The notes under the pieces are model-generated. The model did no database searches and was not told the DNA's origin. It saw only the letters and a list, made by a program, of their open reading frames with translations. 34,908 nt of DNA from a virus, in the IMG/VR virus record IMGVR_UViG_3300042691_015327, positions 1 to 34,908 of that record. One strand, 5' to 3'. Of this stretch, positions 14,950-30,998 are shown piece after piece (within the stretch, counting starts at the first letter, position 1; every line of letters starts with the position of its first letter). The position numbers and the translations under genes were made by a program.

Positions 14950-16367
14950 TCATTCCCCGCCCCCGACAAGCCCAGGCTATTGACGACCTGCGAAAAGCCT
15001 ACCGATTTGGCTACAAGGCCCCCATCCTGATCGCCCCCACCGGGTTTGGCAAGAGTGCAACCGCGATCTGCATGATTCAAAACGCGCTCGACAAAGGCAA
15101 GCGCGTGTGGTTCATCGCGCACCTCAAGGAAATCCTGAACGACACCAGCAACCGCCTGACCGATGCGGGCATCCCCTACGGCTGGATCGCCGCTGGCCGC
15201 GACGGCAACCACCGCTTGCCTGTGCAGGTGGCCATGGTGCAGACCCTGGTGCGCCGCCTGGACCGGTACCAGCCGCCGGACCTGATCATCGTGGACGAGG
15301 CGCACCTGGCGGTGGCCAACACCTACCAGCAGATTTTCGAGTGGGCTGGCGCAGGCCCGAAGTTCAAGCGCCAGGGCGGCGCGCACCTGCTGCACCTCAC
15401 GGCCACGCCCTGCCGCCTGGACGGCCGAGGCATGAACGAGGTCGCCGACATCTTGGTGCCCACCTGCAGCACGCAGGACCTGATCGACGAGGGGCTGCTC
15501 GCGCCCATCCGCTACTACGCGCCCAGCGAGCCGGACCTCTCGGGTGTGCACACCGTGGCGGGCGACTTCAACCAGGGCGAGCTGGCCGCTGCCATGGACA
15601 AGCCCGTGATCACCGGCTCGGCCGTGCAGCACTACCGCAAGCTCGCCGACGGTCGCCCGGCCGTGGCGTTTTGCGTGACCGTCGAGCACGCCACCAACGT
15701 GGCTGAGCAGTTTCGCCAGGCAGGGTACCGGGCCGTGGCCATCAGCGGCGAGTCCGACACCGTTGAGCGCGACGCTGCCCTGCAAGGCCTGCGCGACGGC
15801 GTCCTGGATGTGGTCTGCAACTGCGCCCTGTGGGTGGCCGGTGTGGACGCGCCATCCATCGGCTGCATCATCCAGCTCGCGCCTACGCAGTCGGTCGTGA
15901 AATACCTGCAATCCGTTGGCCGTGGCCTGCGCACACACCCTGGCAAGGACGACTGCATCATCCTCGACCACGCGGGCAACGTGAAGCGCCATGGGCTGCC
16001 CACAGATCTGCGCGAATGGACCCTGGCCGCCGTCGAGAAAAAGAAGGGTGCCAAGAAGTCCGAGGTGCCGGTGAAAACCTGTCCCGTGTGCTTTACCACT
16101 GTGCCTTCCATCGTCACCGACTGCGCTTGTGGCCACCACTTCGAGCCCGTTGGCCGCGAGATCGAAGAAGTGGATGGGCAACTCGAGGAGATCACCGCTG
16201 CCGCCGCCAAGGCCCAGGCGGTCAAGGAGCGCAAGATGGAGCAGGGCAGGTCGCAGACCGAGGCCGACCTGATTCGCATCGGCCACGCCCGTGGCATGAA
16301 GAGGCCAGAATTGTGGGCTCGCCACGTGCTCCGCGCCCGCGCCGCCAAGGAGGCCCAGAAGCGATGA
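14946..16367 (+). CDS. SF2 DEAH-type helicase with C-terminal zinc motif
   Basis: A 473-residue superfamily-2 helicase. The motifs are Q-like PRPRQAQAI at the N-terminus, Walker A APTGFGKS (30-37), DEAH (117-120), motif III TAT (152-154) and motif VI QSVGRGLR (322-329). A CPVC…CxCG zinc site (C379, C382, C393, C395) and a helical tail follow. The arrangement fits the RecG/Rad25-like phage helicases that unwind DNA during replication or remodel forks. It is followed at once by a zinc protein and a VRR-NUC nuclease. The length is normal and the catalytic residues are intact. The role in replication rather than repair is inferred from the neighbours. Confidence 0.9.
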   Translation: MIIPRPRQAQAIDDLRKAYRFGYKAPILIAPTGFGKSATAICMIQNALDKGKRVWFIAHLKEILNDTSNRLTDAGIPYGWIAAGRDGNHRLPVQVAMVQTLVRRLDRYQPPDLIIVDEAHLAVANTYQQIFEWAGAGPKFKRQGGAHLLHLTATPCRLDGRGMNEVADILVPTCSTQDLIDEGLLAPIRYYAPSEPDLSGVHTVAGDFNQGELAAAMDKPVITGSAVQHYRKLADGRPAVAFCVTVEHATNVAEQFRQAGYRAVAISGESDTVERDAALQGLRDGVLDVVCNCALWVAGVDAPSIGCIIQLAPTQSVVKYLQSVGRGLRTHPGKDDCIILDHAGNVKRHGLPTDLREWTLAAVEKKKGAKKSEVPVKTCPVCFTTVPSIVTDCACGHHFEPVGREIEEVDGQLEEITAAAAKAQAVKERKMEQGRSQTEADLIRIGHARGMKRPELWARHVLRARAAKEAQKR

Positions 16368-20378: not shown

Positions 20379-21749
20379 ATGAAAAACCAGCCCGTTGAAT
20401 CCACCACGGAAATTACCGCCGAAAAACTCACCGGAAACCCTGCCGACAAAATCGAACAGTGGAGCATCGACAAACTTATCCCCTACGCACGCAACAGCCG
20501 CACCCACTCAGACGAGCAGATCGGACAGATCGCAGCCTCGATCAAAGAGTGGGGTTGGACCACGCCCATCCTGGTCGATGAGCAAGGCGGCATCATTGCC
20601 GGACACGGCCGCACGATGGCCGCACAGCGCCTCAAAATCAAAACAGTCCCGGTCATGGTCGCCACCGGCTGGTCCGAGGCCAAGAAACGCGCCTACATCA
20701 TTGCCGACAACCGCCTTGCCCTGAACGCCGGGTGGGACAACGCCATGCTGGCCACCGAGTTTAAAGACCTGATGGACCTCGGCTTCGACGTTGGCCTCAC
20801 AGGCTTCACCGAAGAAGAGATCGACGCCCTGATGCCCCTGGAGCTGGAGGAAGGCCTCACAGACCCCGACGACGCGCCCGAGGCCCCAGCCAACCCCGTC
20901 ACCGTCCAAGGCGACGTTTGGGTCATGGGCAGCCACCGACTGCTCTGCGGCGACTCCACCAGTATCGACGACCTGGAAAAGCTCTGCGCTGGGCAACCTG
21001 TGGACATGTGGCTCACGGACCCGCCATACAACGTGGCCTACGAGGGCGGCACCAAAGAAAAGCTCACCATCAAAAACGACTCGATGGGCGACACTCAGTT
21101 CCGCGAGTTCCTGCGCGATGCCTACACCGCAGCAAACGCGGTCATGAAAGCCGGGGCGGTTTTCTACATCTGGCACGCCGACAGCGAGGGCTACAATTTC
21201 CGAGGAGCCGCCAAGGACGCCGGTTGGACCGTGCGCCAGTGCCTCATCTGGAAGAAGTCCAGCCTCGTGCTCGGCCGCCAGGACTACCAGTGGCAGCACG
21301 AGCCATGCCTCTACGGCTGGAAGGACGGCGCGGGCCACCTCTGGGCTGCCGACCGCAAGCAGACCACCATCCTCGAGTTCGACAAGCCCGCCCGCAACGG
21401 CGAGCACCCAACCATGAAGCCCGTGGCCCTCTTCGAGTACCAGATGCTCAACAACACCAAGGGCGGCGACATCGTCCTCGACAGCTTCGGAGGCTCCGGC
21501 ACCACCCTGATCGCAGCCGAGAAAAACGGCCGAGTTGCCAGGCTCATGGAGTTGGACCCAAAATACTGCGACGTGATCGTCACCCGCTGGCAACAGTTCA
21601 CCGGCAAGCACGCGCACCTGGAGGCCGACGGGCGATCCTTCACCGAGGTGATGGGCGAACGCAGCCCCAACAGCCTGATCGGGAGCGAGATCGGGAAGGC
21701 CGACAAACCCAAGGCCGACAAGACCAAACCGGCAAAAAAGCCGGATTGA
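20379..21749 (+). CDS. ParB-domain DNA adenine methyltransferase (beta-type motif order)
   Basis: A 456-residue fusion. Residues about 25-110 are a ParB/Srx-like domain (IDKLIPYARNSRTHSDEQIG; IIAGHGR at 72-78, where GHGR is the nucleotide-binding box). The rest is a methyltransferase with catalytic TDPPYN (213-218) before the SAM-binding FGGSGTT (370-376), the order of beta-class enzymes. DPPY favours N6-adenine as product. The tail is Lys-rich. Such phage enzymes protect DNA from host restriction or mark it for packaging or replication. No restriction partner is seen, so it is an orphan. The start follows a CCGGAGCCCGC site. Confidence 0.9.
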   Translation: MKNQPVESTTEITAEKLTGNPADKIEQWSIDKLIPYARNSRTHSDEQIGQIAASIKEWGWTTPILVDEQGGIIAGHGRTMAAQRLKIKTVPVMVATGWSEAKKRAYIIADNRLALNAGWDNAMLATEFKDLMDLGFDVGLTGFTEEEIDALMPLELEEGLTDPDDAPEAPANPVTVQGDVWVMGSHRLLCGDSTSIDDLEKLCAGQPVDMWLTDPPYNVAYEGGTKEKLTIKNDSMGDTQFREFLRDAYTAANAVMKAGAVFYIWHADSEGYNFRGAAKDAGWTVRQCLIWKKSSLVLGRQDYQWQHEPCLYGWKDGAGHLWAADRKQTTILEFDKPARNGEHPTMKPVALFEYQMLNNTKGGDIVLDSFGGSGTTLIAAEKNGRVARLMELDPKYCDVIVTRWQQFTGKHAHLEADGRSFTEVMGERSPNSLIGSEIGKADKPKADKTKPAKKPD

Positions 21750-22540: not shown

Positions 22541-22734
22541 CTGCCTCAGCGGTTTACCCGGGCGATGAACAGGCGCTTTGCCACATCATCCCGCTCGGGG
22601 ACTTCAAGGAGCACGAGGTCAGCCGTGCTTGCTGGTGCCACCCGCGTGCGCACGAGGAATACCCCGACGTGATGCTGCACAACGCCATGGACCAGCGCGA
22701 CAAGCTCGAGCGTGGGGAGATTCGGCTGCAATGA
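22537..22734 (+). CDS. Small conserved phage 'CWCHP' protein (65 aa)
   Basis: ATG 22537 overlaps the preceding stop. The 65 residues hold IIPLGDFKEHEVSRACWCHP, then EEYPDVMLHNAMDQRDKLER. I know this 'DLREH…CWCxP…HNxxDxRE' pattern from many phage genomes as a conserved hypothetical, usually beside terminase genes. The Cys-x-Cys-His cluster might bind metal. The function is unknown. It ends 4 nt into the large terminase start. Confidence 0.7.
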   Translation: MTASAVYPGDEQALCHIIPLGDFKEHEVSRACWCHPRAHEEYPDVMLHNAMDQRDKLERGEIRLQ

Positions 22735-24311
22735 ACGCACCCGTCTCCCCCGCCGTCATGCTGGACCTGATCGCCAAGGAACAGGACCGCCGCCGCGCCA
22801 GCGCCAGCCTGTACGAGTTCGTCAAACAGGCTTGGCACGTCATGGAGCCCGGCGTCCCATTTGTGCCGAGCTGGCACATCGAGCTGATCTGCGAGCACCT
22901 GGAGGCCGTCAGCTTCGGCGAGATTCAGCGCCTGCTCATCAACATCCCGCCGCGCCACTCCAAGTCCACCATCGTCTCAGTGGCCTGGTGCTGCTGGGAG
23001 TGGCTGACCTCGCCCGAGCAGAAGTTCCTCGCCGCGTCCTACTCCGGCACGCTGTCCATCCGAGACAACCTCAAAGCCCGGCGCCTGATCCAGTCGCCCT
23101 GGTACCAAGAGCGCTGGGGGCACATGTTTCAGCTGGCCGGGGACCAAAACGCCAAGCAGCGCTTCGAGAACAACAAGACCGGCTACCGGCTGGCCACCTC
23201 GGTGGGCGGTACCGCAACCGGTGAAGGCGGCTCGCGCCTGATCCTGGACGACCCGCACGGCGCACAGGACGCGCAGTCCGAGACCATGCGCGAGAGCGCG
23301 CTCGAGTGGTTCGACATGGTCTGGTCCACGCGTCTGAACAACCCCAAGACCGACGCCATGGTGACGGTCATGCAGCGCCTGCACGAGAAGGACATCAGCG
23401 GGCACATCCTCAACGACATCAAAGGCTGGGAGCACATCTGCATCCCGGCCGAGTGGGACGGCAAACAGCGCAGGACGGTGCTCGGGCCCTACGACCCGCG
23501 CCGCACCAAGGGCGAGCTGATCTGCCCCGACCGCTTCGGCGAGGCCGAGATCACCAAGCTCAAGCAGCTGCTGGGCACCTACGGCACCGCTGGCCAGCTG
23601 CAGCAAGAGCCGTCGCCCGCCGAGGGTGGCATCCTGAAGGCCGACTGCTTCAACCTCTGGCCGGTGGCCCAACGCCTGCCGCCCTTCGAGTACATCCTGC
23701 AAAGCTACGACTGCGCCTTCACCGAGCGGACCACAGGCGACCCGACGGCCTGCACGGTCTGGGGCGTGTTCACGCACCGGGGCCTGCGCAACGCCATGCT
23801 GCTCGACGCCTGGGACGAGCACCTGGGCTACCCGGACCTGCGCTCCAAGGTGATCCGCGACTGGACCAGCGAGTACGGGGCGGACAAGTCGGCCAAGGCT
23901 GGCATGCCCACCAAGGGGCGGCGGCCCGACCGGCTGCTCGTCGAGGCCAAGGCAAGCGGCCAATCGTTGCTGCAGGACTTGCGTCTGGCCAAGGTCCCAG
24001 CCGTTGGCTACAATCCCGGTCAAGCGGATAAGGTGTCGAGGGCGCACCAGACCGCGCCGACGTTGGAGCTTGGACTGCTGTGGATCCCGGAGTCTGCGAA
24101 GAACCCCGGCCAGCCTGTGAGCTGGGCCCAGCCGTTCTTGAACCAGGTGGCGAAGTTCCCTGTCGCTGAGCACGACGACTACGTGGACACATTCACGCAG
24201 GCGGTCATCTACCTCAAGAACGACGGTTGGTTCGAGCTGCCACAAGCACGCGACGTTGACGAAGATCGGCCCCGTCATCGTGAAGGAAGGGTCAACCCGT
24301 ATGCCGTCTAA
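22731..24311 (+). CDS. terL: Terminase large subunit
   Basis: ATG 22731 overlaps the previous stop (ATGA); the long frame continues upstream but has no need to be used. The 526-residue product is the packaging motor: Walker A-like PPRHSKST (73-80), Walker B LILDD (170-174), then a C-terminal RNase-H-like nuclease with SYDCAF (Asp327) and HDDYVD (482-486) as metal-binding acidic residues. It pumps genomic DNA into the procapsid through the portal and cuts it. The length is typical. The preceding small gene probably encodes its DNA-recognition partner. Confidence 0.93.
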   Translation: MNAPVSPAVMLDLIAKEQDRRRASASLYEFVKQAWHVMEPGVPFVPSWHIELICEHLEAVSFGEIQRLLINIPPRHSKSTIVSVAWCCWEWLTSPEQKFLAASYSGTLSIRDNLKARRLIQSPWYQERWGHMFQLAGDQNAKQRFENNKTGYRLATSVGGTATGEGGSRLILDDPHGAQDAQSETMRESALEWFDMVWSTRLNNPKTDAMVTVMQRLHEKDISGHILNDIKGWEHICIPAEWDGKQRRTVLGPYDPRRTKGELICPDRFGEAEITKLKQLLGTYGTAGQLQQEPSPAEGGILKADCFNLWPVAQRLPPFEYILQSYDCAFTERTTGDPTACTVWGVFTHRGLRNAMLLDAWDEHLGYPDLRSKVIRDWTSEYGADKSAKAGMPTKGRRPDRLLVEAKASGQSLLQDLRLAKVPAVGYNPGQADKVSRAHQTAPTLELGLLWIPESAKNPGQPVSWAQPFLNQVAKFPVAEHDDYVDTFTQAVIYLKNDGWFELPQARDVDEDRPRHREGRVNPYAV

Positions 24312-24477
24312 GTCGCAACCCAAGCCCATCTGGGACAAGAAGCGCCCCAGCTCTCTGGGCGCACCGAAGGCGCTGTCCTCCAGCGCCAAGTCCAGCGCCA
24401 AGCGCGCAGCCGAAAAGGCCGGACGCCCGTACCCCAACCTGGTGGACAACATGCGGGCGGCAAGGAAGTCGAAATGA
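24301..24477 (+). CDS. Small basic hypothetical protein (58 aa)
   Basis: ATG 24301 lies inside the end of terL, behind GAAGGAAGGG. The 58 residues are strongly basic and rich in Ala, Ser and Lys (MPSKSQPKPIWDKKRPSSLG; KSSAKRAAEKAGRPYPN). It could bind DNA or RNA or be a short linker protein. I recall similar 'MPSKSxAQ…' basic peptides beside terminase genes. It overlaps the next gene by 4 nt. The function is unknown. Confidence 0.55.
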   Translation: MPSKSQPKPIWDKKRPSSLGAPKALSSSAKSSAKRAAEKAGRPYPNLVDNMRAARKSK

Positions 24478-24749
24478 CCAAGCCGCTCAAGAAGTCCGAA
24501 ATGGCGTGCAATCAACCCAAGCGCACGCCGGACCACCCCAAGAAATCCCATGTGGTCAAGGCCTGCTACGACGGCACCGAAAAGGTGATCCGCTTCGGCG
24601 AGCAAGGCGCCAAGACGGCAGGCAAGCCCAAGGCTGGCGAGTCGGCTGCGACCACCGCAAAGCGCGACAGCTTCAAGGCGCGCCACGCAAAGAACATCGC
24701 CAAGGGTCCGTCGAGCGCGGCGTACTGGGCCAACAAAACGAAGTGGTAA
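24474..24749 (+). CDS. DUF6321-like conserved phage protein (91 aa)
   Basis: A 91-residue basic protein with a conserved core: PDHPKKSHVVKACYDGTEKV, IRFGEQGAKTAG, and a final FKARHAKNIAKGPSSAAYWA plus NKTKW. I recall this as a conserved phage domain (DUF6321 or very similar), with the IRFGxQG and FKARHxxNI…SAAYWAxKxKW blocks as hallmarks. It is probably a nucleic-acid-binding structural or accessory protein, but no function is established. It overlaps the previous gene by 4 nt. Confidence 0.75.
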   Translation: MTKPLKKSEMACNQPKRTPDHPKKSHVVKACYDGTEKVIRFGEQGAKTAGKPKAGESAATTAKRDSFKARHAKNIAKGPSSAAYWANKTKW

Positions 24750-24752
24750 GCC

Positions 24753-27641
24753 ATGTCCAAAGTCTCAGTCCTTGCAAAACTTCGCACGTTGCTGGCCCGC
24801 GAAGCTCCCGAGCAGGCGGCCACGATTCGTGAGGCGATTGCTCAGTCCGCACGCACAGGCAACGAGGCCTCTGTTGTTGGTCCGGCCAACCTACCCCGGC
24901 GCTCAAAAATAACCATCGGCCGACCCGACACCGTCCAGCCCAACGTCAGCGACAGGACTGCTGCCCTTGACTACGCCCAGCCTGGTCAGGGCATCATTGA
25001 CTTTCACACCCATCCCTACGGCTCGGATGACTCGATGTTTCTCGTGCGGCCCAGCTCGACCGACCTGGGCTACTTCAACGCCAATTACAAGCCTGGCGAC
25101 TTTCAAGACCGCGAGCTGCGCACGTTGATCGTTCAACCGCCCTCGCTGCGCGACCGGATGCCTGCCGCGTACAGCATGTTCGCCACTGACAAGCCCGCAG
25201 TTTTGGCTCCGAGGCTTTTGGACACTGCACGCAACGAGCTTGGCATGGCGGCGCGCAAAGGTCGATTCAAGTCGATCATGGACGACCCGACGTTCCGCGA
25301 TTACTTTGATTACGGCGGCGAGCTGAGCGACCTCGTTGCGGATGCTGCGCCACTGCTGATGCTGCGCCACCGTGCCGCTCAGGGCGTTGGCCGTCATGAG
25401 TACGGGCTCAGCGGTCGCACACTGACGCCAAACCCCGAGTCGACAGAGACCAACTTGCTCCAGCGCATGGAGCCTGCTGCGCTTGAGGTTTTGCGTGAGA
25501 AAAAATATGCAAAGGGCGGCGAAGTGACCGCCTCAAGGAGTGCCGCAATGGCTGACGATCTGAACCGCCCGTACATCGGCTACCGCTCCGCTGGCCGCCG
25601 CCCCGAGTCCCAGCAAGACCGACGCGCCTCCGCCGACGCTCCGCTGGCTGCGCTGCGTGGAATGGTCTCCGGCGTGCTCGGTGCTCCTGGAGACATTGAG
25701 TCCTTGGTGCGCATGCTGCCAGGCTTGAACGAGCAGACCGTTCTGCCCACCAGCGAGGACGTTGAGAAGCGCCTGCCGATGCGCTCGGTAAGCCAGACGC
25801 CTGTGGGTCAAGCGTTCACCACGGCGGGCCAGCTTGGCGGCGGTTTCTACACAGGACCAGGCTCCCCGTTGCGCGCCATCGCTGCGCTGCCGTCGGCGGT
25901 CAGCCGCGCTGGCCGCGACTTCGTCATGGCCGCTGGTCAACCGGCGGTCAACGTGGTCAAACCCAAGGGCGGCAACTGGCTGGCCGGGACCGTTGAGCGC
26001 ACGATCGATCCGATGCGGACACTCGATCCCAACATGGTGAACACGCTGCGAAACGCCGACCCACGATTTGTGGACCAGGCTGCACTGTCGCGCATGGAGT
26101 CCGAAGGCGGTGCTCTTGATCGCTGGCTCGAAACCAAGCTGGCCAAGTACATCAAAAACGAGATGGCCACGCCCGAGGACCCAATCCGCGCGCTGGCCGA
26201 GCGCGGCATCATCCACAGCGAGATCACGCCGACCGGATACAGCCTTATGGTTCCACGCCTTTCGGGTGGTTTCCCAGAGGAGGGTATGGGGGTATCCCCT
26301 TTAGCAAAGGCATGGGAAGGCCGCGCAGACTCATTTGTAAACAAGCTAATGGCGTCCGATCTAACCAGTCAATATCCAAAAATGGTTGAAGAGAATCCAT
26401 GGCTGCTCAAAGTCCCACCCGAAACTCGCGTCTACGACATGCTGCGCGGCGCGGATGAAGACCTTGGCTTTAGCCACCTGGTCGACGAGCTGAAGAACGC
26501 GATCAACCCCGCGTCGGGGCTTCCCGAGAACCTGCGCTGGAAGTACTCCGACCTGGACAAGGTGAGCGTGCCCCAGGCCGTTGAGCGCGTGGCCAAGATC
26601 AACGAGTGGCGCGCCGCCCAAAAGGCCGAGGCCGACATGGCTCGCGCCATGAACCCAGCCACGCAGGTGGTCAAGGAGTACCCGGAGCAGGGCTTCAAGT
26701 GGGTGGAGCTGCGCCAGCCCAAAGAGACTGGGCGAAAAATCAGCGTCGAGAAATCAGAGATGGATTTGCCTCCCGATATGGATCAAAGGCAAATGCGCGA
26801 AGTGGCCGAGGACATGGCCTTCGACGAAGGCTTTGATGAAGGCACGCCAGAGTTCAACAATTTTGTGCGCGACATGATGACCGACTTCAACCGCAAAAAG
26901 AAGGTCGAGATGGACGAGTCCTACAAAGCCCTGGAAGACGCCCTCAAGTACGAAGGCGAGACTATGGGCCACTGCGTCGGCGGCTACTGCCCGGACGTGG
27001 TTGAGGGCCGATCCAAAATCTACAGCCTGCGCGACAAGAAGGGGCAGCCGCACGTGACGATTGAGGTGGCTCCGCGTCCTCTGAAGACTTGGGATGACGT
27101 CACCGCCGCTGTTGGCAAAGATGAAGCCGCAAAGTTGTGGCAAGAATTCGACGACATTGGTGGCAACAACATGTCGGACGTCGGCGAAGGGTTTGATATT
27201 TTTATCAAAAACAAAGGCATCCAGCCAGCGCAGGACATCGTCCAGATCAAAGGCAAGGCCAACCGCGCGCCCAAGGAAGAGTACCTGCCAGCCGTGCAGG
27301 ACTTTGTGAGGTCGGGGAACTTTGGCAAGGTGGGGGACCTGCAAAACACGGGCTTGATCGACATTCAGGATCCGAATGCTGTGCTGCGCGCACTCGGTAA
27401 GGTTTCGCCCGAGCGAAACATTCAGCAGGCGATTGACAACTTCAACGCCGCTGTTGATTCAGCACCAAATGCCCAGCGTTATATGAGCCTTGACGAGATG
27501 CGCGACTTCTTGGGCGGCCCATCACCAGAAGGCTTCGCCTCCGGCGGCCTGGTGTCCGGTGTGAATTTCCACACAGACGACTTTGACCCGGCTAGAATCG
27601 GATCCATCGTGGACGAGCTCCACGCAATGAACGCAGGCTGA
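24753..27641 (+). CDS. Large multidomain protein: JAMM-like N-terminus and PcfJ-like C-terminus (962 aa)
   Basis: This lies between terL and portal. The N-terminal part has IIDFHTHP (H85, H87) and, 13 residues later, SSTD (S101-D104). This is a JAMM/MPN-like metalloprotease pattern (HxHP…SxxD). Residue 266 is an internal in-frame ATG (25548) behind AAGGAG, following KKYAKGGEV. Next come a long central region and a C-terminal part with MGHCVGGYCPDVVEGRSKIY (738-757), IEVAP and VQIKGKANRAPKEEYLP, which resembles the PcfJ family. A FASGGLV motif echoes KGGEV. It may have arisen by fusion of two genes. Enzymatic activity is unproven. Confidence 0.75.
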   Translation: MSKVSVLAKLRTLLAREAPEQAATIREAIAQSARTGNEASVVGPANLPRRSKITIGRPDTVQPNVSDRTAALDYAQPGQGIIDFHTHPYGSDDSMFLVRPSSTDLGYFNANYKPGDFQDRELRTLIVQPPSLRDRMPAAYSMFATDKPAVLAPRLLDTARNELGMAARKGRFKSIMDDPTFRDYFDYGGELSDLVADAAPLLMLRHRAAQGVGRHEYGLSGRTLTPNPESTETNLLQRMEPAALEVLREKKYAKGGEVTASRSAAMADDLNRPYIGYRSAGRRPESQQDRRASADAPLAALRGMVSGVLGAPGDIESLVRMLPGLNEQTVLPTSEDVEKRLPMRSVSQTPVGQAFTTAGQLGGGFYTGPGSPLRAIAALPSAVSRAGRDFVMAAGQPAVNVVKPKGGNWLAGTVERTIDPMRTLDPNMVNTLRNADPRFVDQAALSRMESEGGALDRWLETKLAKYIKNEMATPEDPIRALAERGIIHSEITPTGYSLMVPRLSGGFPEEGMGVSPLAKAWEGRADSFVNKLMASDLTSQYPKMVEENPWLLKVPPETRVYDMLRGADEDLGFSHLVDELKNAINPASGLPENLRWKYSDLDKVSVPQAVERVAKINEWRAAQKAEADMARAMNPATQVVKEYPEQGFKWVELRQPKETGRKISVEKSEMDLPPDMDQRQMREVAEDMAFDEGFDEGTPEFNNFVRDMMTDFNRKKKVEMDESYKALEDALKYEGETMGHCVGGYCPDVVEGRSKIYSLRDKKGQPHVTIEVAPRPLKTWDDVTAAVGKDEAAKLWQEFDDIGGNNMSDVGEGFDIFIKNKGIQPAQDIVQIKGKANRAPKEEYLPAVQDFVRSGNFGKVGDLQNTGLIDIQDPNAVLRALGKVSPERNIQQAIDNFNAAVDSAPNAQRYMSLDEMRDFLGGPSPEGFASGGLVSGVNFHTDDFDPARIGSIVDELHAMNAG

Positions 27642-27645
27642 ACAC

Positions 27646-30165
27646 ATGGCTGACCAACTCCTGAACGACGGCGAAGACGAGAACCCAAGCGACGATGAGC
27701 AGCGAGGCGAAACCGTCTCCATGCCCGACGACGATCTGGAGGTTGAAGATACCGAGGACGGCGGCGCGGTCATCCGCATGAAGAATGAGCAGGATGTGGC
27801 CGACAAGAAGGCCCACTTCGCCAACATCGTCGACGAGGTCGATCGCAGCATGCTGTCCGACGCGGTCGTTGACCTGCTCGACAAGATCGAGCGCGACAAG
27901 GACGCCCGCTCTAAGCGCGACAAGCTCTACGAGGAAGGCCTGCGCCGCACCGGCCTGGGCGACGATGCACCCGGTGGTGCTCAGTTCTCTGGCGCCAACA
28001 AGGTGGTGCACCCGATGCTGGTCGAGGCCTGCGTCGATTTCAGTGCCCGATTTATGAAGGAGGTTTTCCCGCCCTCCGGCCCGGTCAAGTCCAAGATTCT
28101 GGGCGAGGCTGAGCCCGAGAAGCTGGAAAAAGCCCGCCGCAAGGCCGAGTTCATGAATTGGCAGACCACGCAGCAAATGCCCGAGCTGCGCGGCGAGCTG
28201 GAGCAGCTGTCCACTCAGCTCCCCCTGGGTGGCGGCCAGTACCTCAAGCTCATGTGGTCCCCGCAGTGGAAGCGCCCGACGGCCGAGTTCATCGCCATCG
28301 ACGACATCTATCTGCCGTTTGCGGCCACCAACTTTTACTCGGCCGAGCGCAAGACGCACGTGCAGTACGTCACCAAGGCCGAGTTCAACCGCCGCATGAA
28401 GGCGGGCATGTACACCGAGGTAGATCTGGGCTCGCCTGATCAGGTCGAGTTCAGCAAGGCCACGATCGCCAACGACAAGATAGAGGGCCGAGAGGACACC
28501 AGCTACAACGAGGACGGCCTGCGCACCATCTTCGAGATTTACACCCACCTGGACTTTGGTGACGGCATGGAGCCGTACATCATCAGCATCGACAAATCCA
28601 CGCGCAAGGCGCTCTCGCTGTACCGCAACTGGGAGCCAGAGGACCAGCGCCGCAAGGAGCTGGACTGGATTGTCGAGTTCCCGTTCGTGCCTTGGCGCGG
28701 CGCGTACCCGATCGGCCTGACCCACATGATCGGCGGCTTGTCGGGCGCAGCCACTGGCGCACTGCGTGCGTTGCTGGACTCGGCCCACATCCAAAACATC
28801 CCGACGCTGCTCAAACTCAAGGGCGGCCCCGGCGGCCAGACGATCAACCTGCAGCCGACCGAGGTGGTCGAGATCGAGGGCGGCGCGCTGGTCGACGACA
28901 TTCGCAAGCTGGCCATGGCCCTGCCGTTCAACGGCCCAAGTCCCACGCTGTTTCAGCTGCTCGGCTTCCTGGTGGACGCGGGCAAGGGCGTGGTGCAGAC
29001 CTCGTTTGAGAAGCTGTCCGACCAAAACCCCAACGCCCCAGTGGGCACTACCCTGGCGCTCATCGAGCAGGGCATGGTGGTGTTCAGCTCCATCCACTCG
29101 CGCCTGCACAACAGCATGGCACGGGTGTTTGCTATCCTGCACCGCATCAACAGCGCGTACCTGACCGAAGAGGACATCGAGGCCATGGAAAACGGCCTGG
29201 ATGTAAAGCCCGAGGACTTCGACGGCCCGATGGACGTTGTGCCTGTGTCCGATCCGGCCATCTTCAGCGAGGCTCAGCGCTTCGCCCAGGTCCAGGCCGT
29301 GCAGGCCCGTGCGTCTGCCATGCCGCAGATGTACGACCTGCGCAAGGTCGAGGAAATGTTCCTGCGCAACCTCAAGCTCAGCCCAGACGACGTGCTGCAG
29401 CCCCAGCCTGGCCAGGACGACGTTGATCCGGTCAGCGAGAACGTGGCCGCCTCGATGGGCCGTCCGGTCTACGTGCTGCCCAAGCAGGACCACGTGGCGC
29501 ACATCCAGACGCACTTGGCGTTCTTGAAGTCGCCGGTGTTTGGCATGAACCCGGCCATCGTCAAGACCTACATCTACCCGATGGCGCAGCACCTGCGCGA
29601 CCACCTGTTGAACTTCTACCTGACGCAAGCCCACGAGGCCGTGCAGCGCGCCGAGCGCGAGCATCTGATCACCGACGACGCCGAGCAGCAGGTCAAGGTC
29701 ATCGTGCGCGTGCAGCAGATCATCGAGCAGCAGCTGGCGCAGTTTTCCAAGGAGCTGGCCCAGATCGATCAGATGGCCCAGCAGTTTGCCCCTCAGCCAC
29801 CACAGATGCCGCAGGACAAAAGCATGGAGATTGCGCAGCTCAACGCGCAGGTGCAGCAACTTGCCCTGCAGCAGCGCGCACAGACCGACCAGCAGCGCTT
29901 GCAGATCGAGCAGCAGAAGGCAGCACAGAAGGCGCAGACCGATGCCGCCACGCTGGCCGACAAGCAGCAGGCCCGCTCGGAGCAGTTCCAGACCGATCAG
30001 ATGCGCGAGTTTGCCGAAAACCAGCGCACCGCAGCCGAAATCAGCGCCCGTGTTGAGATGAACACGGCCGACAACGTGACGGCCATGCGTCTGGCCGCAG
30101 CAGAAATTGCCTCTGGCGAAAAAGTAGCGGTGTCCACCGGCACCGGTATCAACCCACAACCCTGA
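27646..30165 (+). CDS. Portal protein
   Basis: An 839-residue protein of the large portal type. An acidic N-terminus is followed by a conserved region with FSGANKVVHPMLVEACVDFS, a PFAATNFYSAERKTHVQYVT segment, a middle FVPWRGAYPIGLTHMIGGLS part and later PTLFQLLGFLVDAGKGVVQT. Residues from about 660 form a long Gln/Ala-rich coiled coil (AQLNAQVQQLALQQRAQTDQ). The portal forms a dodecameric ring through which terminase packs DNA. Its place after terL and before scaffold and capsid fits. The ATG has only a weak site (AGG), suggesting coupling to upstream translation. Confidence 0.85.
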   Translation: MADQLLNDGEDENPSDDEQRGETVSMPDDDLEVEDTEDGGAVIRMKNEQDVADKKAHFANIVDEVDRSMLSDAVVDLLDKIERDKDARSKRDKLYEEGLRRTGLGDDAPGGAQFSGANKVVHPMLVEACVDFSARFMKEVFPPSGPVKSKILGEAEPEKLEKARRKAEFMNWQTTQQMPELRGELEQLSTQLPLGGGQYLKLMWSPQWKRPTAEFIAIDDIYLPFAATNFYSAERKTHVQYVTKAEFNRRMKAGMYTEVDLGSPDQVEFSKATIANDKIEGREDTSYNEDGLRTIFEIYTHLDFGDGMEPYIISIDKSTRKALSLYRNWEPEDQRRKELDWIVEFPFVPWRGAYPIGLTHMIGGLSGAATGALRALLDSAHIQNIPTLLKLKGGPGGQTINLQPTEVVEIEGGALVDDIRKLAMALPFNGPSPTLFQLLGFLVDAGKGVVQTSFEKLSDQNPNAPVGTTLALIEQGMVVFSSIHSRLHNSMARVFAILHRINSAYLTEEDIEAMENGLDVKPEDFDGPMDVVPVSDPAIFSEAQRFAQVQAVQARASAMPQMYDLRKVEEMFLRNLKLSPDDVLQPQPGQDDVDPVSENVAASMGRPVYVLPKQDHVAHIQTHLAFLKSPVFGMNPAIVKTYIYPMAQHLRDHLLNFYLTQAHEAVQRAEREHLITDDAEQQVKVIVRVQQIIEQQLAQFSKELAQIDQMAQQFAPQPPQMPQDKSMEIAQLNAQVQQLALQQRAQTDQQRLQIEQQKAAQKAQTDAATLADKQQARSEQFQTDQMREFAENQRTAAEISARVEMNTADNVTAMRLAAAEIASGEKVAVSTGTGINPQP

Positions 30166-30587: not shown

Positions 30588-30998
30588 ATGACAGCTGACG
30601 CGCTGATTGAAGCGATGCGAGAAGCCTTCCCCGAGGCGAATCCTGGGATCGTCCCATTCGGGAGCCGAGTCTTGGTGCAGATCCGCACCCCCAAGACCAA
30701 AACGGCATCCGGCATCATCATTGACAACGGCTCTCGGGACACCGAGAAGTGGAACACCCAGGTGGCGCGCGTCGTCTCCGTCGGGACCCTTGCCTTTAAG
30801 AACCGAAACACCATGGACCCCTGGCCCGAAGGCAGCTGGTGCAGCCCGGGCGACTACGTTCGCGTGCCGAAATACGGAGGCGACCGCTGGGAGGTGCCGC
30901 TTCCCAACGGCGAGTCCGCCCTGTTCGTGATCTTCAACGATCTGGACATCATCGGCCAGGTGACCGGCGACCCGCTGGCCATTCGTGCTTTCATCTGA
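30588..30998 (+). CDS. GroES-like (Cpn10) co-chaperonin
   Basis: A 136-residue protein with the Cpn10 fold pattern. VPFGSRVLVQIRTPKTKTAS, then GIIIDNG, is the first strand block and mobile-loop region. VARVVSVGTLAF and CSPGDYVRVPKYGGDRWEV follow, and the domain ends in FVIFNDLDIIGQV. Such phage proteins replace host GroES on GroEL to help fold the capsid protein, as T4 gp31 does (established for T4). It sits between portal and capsid genes. No GroEL is encoded in this window, so the host chaperonin would be used. Confidence 0.8.
   Translation: MTADALIEAMREAFPEANPGIVPFGSRVLVQIRTPKTKTASGIIIDNGSRDTEKWNTQVARVVSVGTLAFKNRNTMDPWPEGSWCSPGDYVRVPKYGGDRWEVPLPNGESALFVIFNDLDIIGQVTGDPLAIRAFI

Follow-up and report, generated by a model that had tools for sequence, protein, structure and literature searches.

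A putative effector fusion of JAB-type and PcfJ-type genes in a variable slot between the terminase and portal genes of a virus

Introduction

The closest described counterparts of the locus studied here are the packaged polyvalent proteins of portal-terminase phages, which, in those parts of Iyer et al. 2017 (PMC5512222) on which we draw, carry peptidase, GNAT and ART domains. JAB domains of the Tox-JAB-2/DUF4329 and Prok-JAB families have been described as conflict effectors and reported in caudovirales (PMC3482391). Here we analyze a viral DNA of 34,908 nucleotides (IMG/VR virus record IMGVR_UViG_3300042691_015327, positions 1 to 34,908), referred to as the window, in which one frame joins a JAB-type to a PcfJ-type part. 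Like polyvalent proteins, the proteins encoded at this position combine at least two unrelated domains per polypeptide that are shuffled among relatives, and they are encoded beside portal and terminase genes.

Results

A single frame joins a JAB-type and a PcfJ-type part

The window contains a single ORF of 962 codons (24753–27641) that sits between the genes for the terminase large subunit (TerL; phrog_38; 22728–24311) and the portal protein (phrog_1216; 27646–30165), which form the upstream and downstream borders of the slot described below. Two small conserved ORFs lie between TerL and the fused ORF, and the one immediately 5′ of the latter is phrog_7595 (24474–24749); TerL, phrog_7595, the fused ORF and portal are on the plus strand, as are the parts of the ORF listed below. 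A preliminary description of the locus had reported one 962-residue frame between terL and portal, and we found the ORF, its coordinates, the HTHP...PSSTD residues and the PcfJ-like C-terminal half as described. From its N-terminus, the protein consists of an MPN/JAB (JAMM-type) domain (residues 1–250; 25502 being its last nucleotide and 24753 its first), a GG linker with the motif YAKGGEV (codons 252–258; 25506–25526), a low-confidence and probably disordered stretch of about 136 residues after codon 266 (residues about 268–401; 25554–25955; pLDDT <50), a helical middle domain without family match that starts KPKGGNW (25959–26627), a PcfJ/GNAT-like domain (residues about 626–870; 26628–27362), a second GG motif, FASGGLV, close to the C-terminus (27534–27554) and a C-terminal tail. 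Elsewhere in the window, the head gene cluster includes a GroES co-chaperonin homologue (phrog_3188; 30588–30998), which is annotated at a similar place in DSL-LC04, Caulobacter phage RW and MW202545, and a DNA methyltransferase fused to a ParB-like domain is encoded upstream of the terminase genes (20379–21749).

The N-terminal part has the residues and predicted fold of a JAMM enzyme

Relatives of residues 1–258 were collected from IMG/VR and aligned, giving 17 sequences of 37–91% identity in which the JAMM residues E38, H85, H87, P88, P100, S101 and D104 are invariant (in the window, E38 is at 24864, H85 at 25005, H87 at 25011, S101 at 25053 and D104 at 25062). Given this alignment, AlphaFold predicted an MPN fold for the JAB part with a pLDDT of 87.7 and a pTM of 0.86, and nearly all of the top PDB fold matches to the model (Foldseek, VIA) were JAMM enzymes: CfBRCC36 (Foldseek, E = 6.4 × 10−4), Citrobacter BubCD as the best VIA match (Z = 8.1), a Rpn11 homologue and PfJAMM1. 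Among viral structure models, those that this part resembles include RadC/JAB proteins as well as domains from several ‘minor capsid proteins’ of phages. The canonical JAMM spacing is HxH-x7-SxxD, whereas the window has H-x-H-x13-SxxD and the length of the loop differs between relatives. This spacing is the one correction to the HxHP…SxxD pattern from which a metalloprotease-like part had originally been proposed; the invariant residues and predicted MPN fold bear out its JAMM-like nature. By profile search, 12 of the 17 members match Prok-JAB (PF14464) weakly, at best with E = 1.3 × 10−3, and two match DUF4329 (PF14220), but the window protein exceeds neither Pfam JAB cut-off (12.8 bits against a curated 25 for PF14464). 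A sequence-profile search of the PDB with the JAB part gave no useful match, a scan of bacterial genome contigs with the JAB query found no relatives, and tblastn at E 0.1 found no JAB of this family in sequenced phage isolates. Conserved residues and model together establish the first gene as encoding a protein of predicted MPN/JAB fold with the complete JAMM residue set, a predicted enzyme.

The C-terminal part matches PcfJ and may adopt a GNAT-like fold

The PcfJ-like C-terminus suspected earlier was confirmed by a match to Pfam PF14284 above the cut-off (30.7 bits against 25; residues 730–775; 26940–27077), which covers profile positions 76–123 (48/147) and is shared by 16 of 18 relatives. 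When residues 626–870 were used for fold searching, the top VIA matches were GNAT-type acyltransferases, with HAT1 as the best (Z = 7.5) and ESCO, GNA1 and AAC also present. The acetyl-CoA loop of GNAT proteins has the consensus Q/R-x-x-G-x-G/A, and a QxxGx[A/G/S]N motif is conserved among relatives of the PcfJ domain; its form in the window, QIKGKAN, resembles the loop motif QxxGxA and may be its counterpart. We propose a GNAT-like fold for the PcfJ domain (PF14284), on the basis of a model with a pTM of 0.47 and fold matches all with Z <8. A profile search of PDB sequences with this domain returned no GNAT and no useful match, and we found no published statement of such a fold in the literature searched.

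The frame arose by fusion of two neighboring genes

In 11 distinct relatives (L002, L007, L009, L011, L029, L049, L050, L053, L057, L059 and L094), the JAB-type and PcfJ-type proteins are encoded by separate genes, which is the usual arrangement. The separate JAB gene has about 270 codons and ends ...KKYAKGGAVRSPLNxxKECSCHG. Its stop overlaps the PcfJ start codon (ATGGCTGA), which is ATG or GTG, and the AAGGAG of the PcfJ gene lies within the KE codons of the tail. Fused JAB-middle-PcfJ frames were found in the window, L001, L003 and L012, and, with a different junction, in L054. In the window, the junction ACCGCCTCAAGGAGTGCCGCA (25527–25547) stands in place of the tail ...RSPLNxxKECSCHG-stop of the separate genes; this junction type, GTGACCGCCTCAAG[GA]AGTGC, occurs in five further contigs, which come from five different metagenome data sets. 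From GTG to the start, the window-type junction measures 24 nt, as against 40 nt in those separate forms that are closest to it, and in this 16-nt-shorter junction the stop is gone and the frames are joined, while the Shine-Dalgarno (SD) sequence and start are retained.

At the level of sequence, these comparisons establish that a JAB-type gene and its PcfJ-type neighbor became one gene through loss of the intervening stop. Of the two alternatives offered in the preliminary description, that of a relic left by stop loss between two genes is upheld by the relatives with separate ORFs and by the common shortened junction. The separate state is likely ancestral, since it occurs in more divergent JABs and since other proteins bear the same tail. 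Within codons 1–240, the window and L012 differ at 43 synonymous positions and one nonsynonymous position, and both halves of the fused frame evidently evolve under purifying selection. The fused JABs do not form a single clade: in the JAB tree, the window-type fusion needs two changes and L003 groups with the separate L007. Despite this tree, the shared junction DNA favors one fusion origin followed by recombination.

The internal start at codon 266 stems from the once separate PcfJ gene

The in-frame AAGGAG and ATG (25548) that had been pointed out at codon 266 are present as AAGGAG-N7-ATG at 25535–25550, with the SD at 25535–25540. The window has 16 AAGGAG-N4-9-ATG sites where 1.06 would be expected; the majority mark the start of an ORF with little open frame ahead of it, and another, at 16236, resembles a chance internal match. 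In relatives, the second start is a true one: a separate PcfJ ORF has the same start in L002, L007, L009, L011, L049, L050, L053, L057, L059 and others, and by this comparison the codon-266 start is that of the ancestral gene for a 697-residue PcfJ-type protein (25548–27641). A separate product from codon 266 is likely in fused forms too. The internal start appears dispensable in some fusions, however, since in the fused L003 the SD has decayed to AAGAAG and the start is GTG. A codon comparison of fused relatives, with too few codons to be sensitive, showed no visible reduction of synonymous change at the junction.

Unrelated proteins occupy the position ahead of the PcfJ gene

The viral contigs were also scanned with the 21-nt junction AAGGAGTGCAGCTGCCATGGC alone, which includes no part of either folded domain. 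This returned 18 stretches, and in those examined a PcfJ-type ORF lies downstream while the upstream protein varies. The slot occupants belong to at least five unrelated protein types, namely JAB, DUF6973, a YRG/ART-like protein and two of unassigned family, and slot proteins of all types end xGGxx...KECSCHG. This shared tail, GGxV...KECSCHG, carries the PcfJ ribosome-binding site. DUF6973 proteins are found in L086 (6074–6526, minus strand; Pfam E = 1.4 × 10−9), L095, L099 and L034. The YRG protein, TTYYRG...FAWSSDNPLVAETYS, is encoded in L088 (2768–3460, minus strand), L092 and L098 and is ADP-ribosyltransferase-like by eye only. Two further proteins with the same tail, in L091 (7036–8328, minus strand) and L096 (4166–4750), lack a family match; no Pfam, PHROGs or NCBIfam model matched the slot proteins of L088, L091 or L096.

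Fusion has also happened repeatedly. DUF6973 is joined in frame to the middle-PcfJ part through KAKGGEV in L015, L023, L025, L027 and L039 and through RAEGGAV in L035, and L052, L055 and L056 combine JAB with other modules. In L058 (1014–4508), the order is reversed, a middle-PcfJ-like part preceding the JAB, and a phrog_7595-like sequence is fused at the front. The modules joined to JAB at L055:8787–10952 and L052:6298–8196 share the motif (I/V)(E/D)E(I/V)QSD and have no Pfam match. Across these genomes, the first position before the PcfJ gene emerges from sequence comparison as a plug-in bay for unrelated proteins, with both JAB and DUF6973 fusions in existence. Why the two domains should be joined in a packaging module, which had been left unexplained, is partly answered by this cassette bay and the repeated fusion there.

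Other genomes vary at the same place. Phage DSL-LC04 has the synteny TerL-PcfJ-portal-GroES-MCP with a PcfJ protein lacking the JAB. In Caulobacter phage RW, with 58% identity to the window in the portal protein, a tRNA gene is all that lies between TerL and portal. The slot of MW202545 (L106:4227–6899) encodes a different large protein with the motifs KAKGGQV, KAEGGNV, MAKGGVA and YAEGGGV.

Gly-Gly motifs border the modules

The pattern [FYLM]AxGGx[VALIM], which was defined after inspection of the data, occurs 44 times in 11 contigs against 7.9 expected from residue shuffles. It is frequent in slot-type proteins and also found in some others; it flanks modules and lies near C-termini. Two small proteins, G003:C1:39032–39742 (L067) and G007:C1:42454–43038 (L082), have four AxGGxV-type motifs each. 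Members of the JAB superfamily cut after Gly-Gly, and the JAB might cleave AxGGxV linkers and free the polyvalent modules before or after packaging. In line with such self-processing, G255 and G256 of the linker are invariant in all 17 JAB homologues, and residues 256–265, just past them, are disordered by prediction. Autoproteolysis by metallopeptidase domains has also been proposed for polyvalent proteins in the cited parts of PMC5512222; for phage tail protein I, the proposal is that a JAB cuts it at glycines (PMC1779556). However, GG linkers are also present in G001, G002 and DSL-LC04, three genomes in which we detected no JAB of this family, and the motif precedes the tails of non-JAB slot proteins. 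These occurrences rule out the motif as an exclusive JAB cleavage site and indicate that the linkers are not solely JAB sites; given also the post hoc choice of the pattern, we consider self-processing unlikely as the main explanation.

Discussion

At a probability of roughly 60%, we favor a reading in which the window protein joins two interchangeable polyvalent effector modules, probably delivered by the virion and encoded in an accessory cargo slot that TerL and portal enclose. The JAB and PcfJ genes are translationally coupled in relatives, and the slot proteins would be polyvalent effectors that are made late alongside head proteins, enter the capsid and leave it together with the DNA. 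We infer packaging and ejection from the slot position, the polyvalent-protein framework as set out in the cited parts of PMC5512222 and the JAB folds in minor capsid proteins. Once delivered, the JAB domain would cleave a protein of the host (or nucleic acid), and acylation of a host protein might be the role of the PcfJ domain; ribosomes would yield the full-length fusion and some stand-alone PcfJ protein from codon 266.

The two ideas on function in the preliminary description, anti-defense and cleavage of a modified protein, find neither support nor contradiction in our results. An alternative role for the JAB domain would be in counter-defense, as an enzyme that removes the ubiquitin-like conjugates produced by anti-phage systems of the host, for example type II CBASS or another bacterial pathway of ubiquitin-like conjugation. 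The best VIA match fits this, as BubCD, judged from its name and its partners BubA and BubB, probably belongs to a bacterial ubiquitin-like pathway, and in CBASS a JAB protein, Cap3, undoes conjugation (PMC10097602). Yet unrelated proteins freely replace the slot occupant, and the Tox-JAB-2/RadC clades may be unable to bind ubiquitin tails (PMC3482391), which leaves this role rather improbable. We are similarly doubtful that the protein serves morphogenesis, acting in assembly or maturation of the head and using its JAB part to process a component of the capsid: the position between TerL and portal and the JAB-like folds in minor capsid proteins would suit such a role, but the JAB is missing or replaced in relatives that keep the TerL-portal-GroES-MCP order, which argues against a general assembly role. 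A functionless chance read-through or a sequencing or assembly error, suggested by the rarity of the fused junction (five contigs plus the window), is effectively ruled out by the identical junction in five data sets and strong purifying selection, and further fusions elsewhere also speak against it.

Under the preferred reading of interchangeable effector modules, one odd ORF becomes a visible process, in which fusion occurs at a cassette border and separate, fused and re-ordered forms can be compared. Polyvalent proteins would gain a combination of MPN protease and PcfJ, and the so far unexplained PcfJ domain a proposed GNAT-like fold. The KECSCHG/ATG junction also provides a DNA handle by which further slot proteins, many of them likely effectors, may be gathered from metagenomes. 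As a bolder and improbable extension, the TerL-portal cargo bay of tailed phages might swap effector domains via a short tail that serves at once as recombination border, ribosome-binding site of the next gene and Gly-Gly module border, with the JAB proteases of the bay cutting the Gly-Gly borders of the cargo for self-processing delivery.

Comparison with described systems places the locus near several of them. Its proteins, like the polyvalent proteins in the cited parts of PMC5512222, combine several unrelated domains in a single polypeptide, belong to portal-terminase phages and have head genes as neighbors; to the peptidase, GNAT and ART domains described there would correspond the predicted JAB, the proposed GNAT-like fold and the slot protein that is ART-like by eye. 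The JAB clade described in that paper, however, is RadC, its text does not mention PcfJ, and in the cited parts we found no description of a shared tail or plug-in slot. With Tox-JAB-2/DUF4329 and Prok-JAB (PMC3482391; PF14220, PF14464), it has in common the E, H[ST]H, S and D residues, but the window protein falls below the Pfam cut-offs, has a longer H-to-S loop and has a PcfJ partner rather than toxin delivery repeats. BubCD shares its MPN fold and Cap3 its JAB domain, whereas no E1/E2 or ubiquitin-like partner is seen in the window and identity to BubCD over the fold is 13–16%. Lambda tail assembly protein K (JAB plus NlpC/P60; PMC1779556) is likewise a phage JAB within a structural gene cluster, but the window JAB lies on the head/packaging side, and neither NlpC/P60 nor a ubiquitin-like partner is seen. 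The PcfJ-like protein of DSL-LC04 has the same PcfJ (PF14284) core motif and the same TerL-portal position; unlike the window protein, it has no JAB of this family and carries its own N-terminus with FAMGGPV and FAEGGEV motifs.
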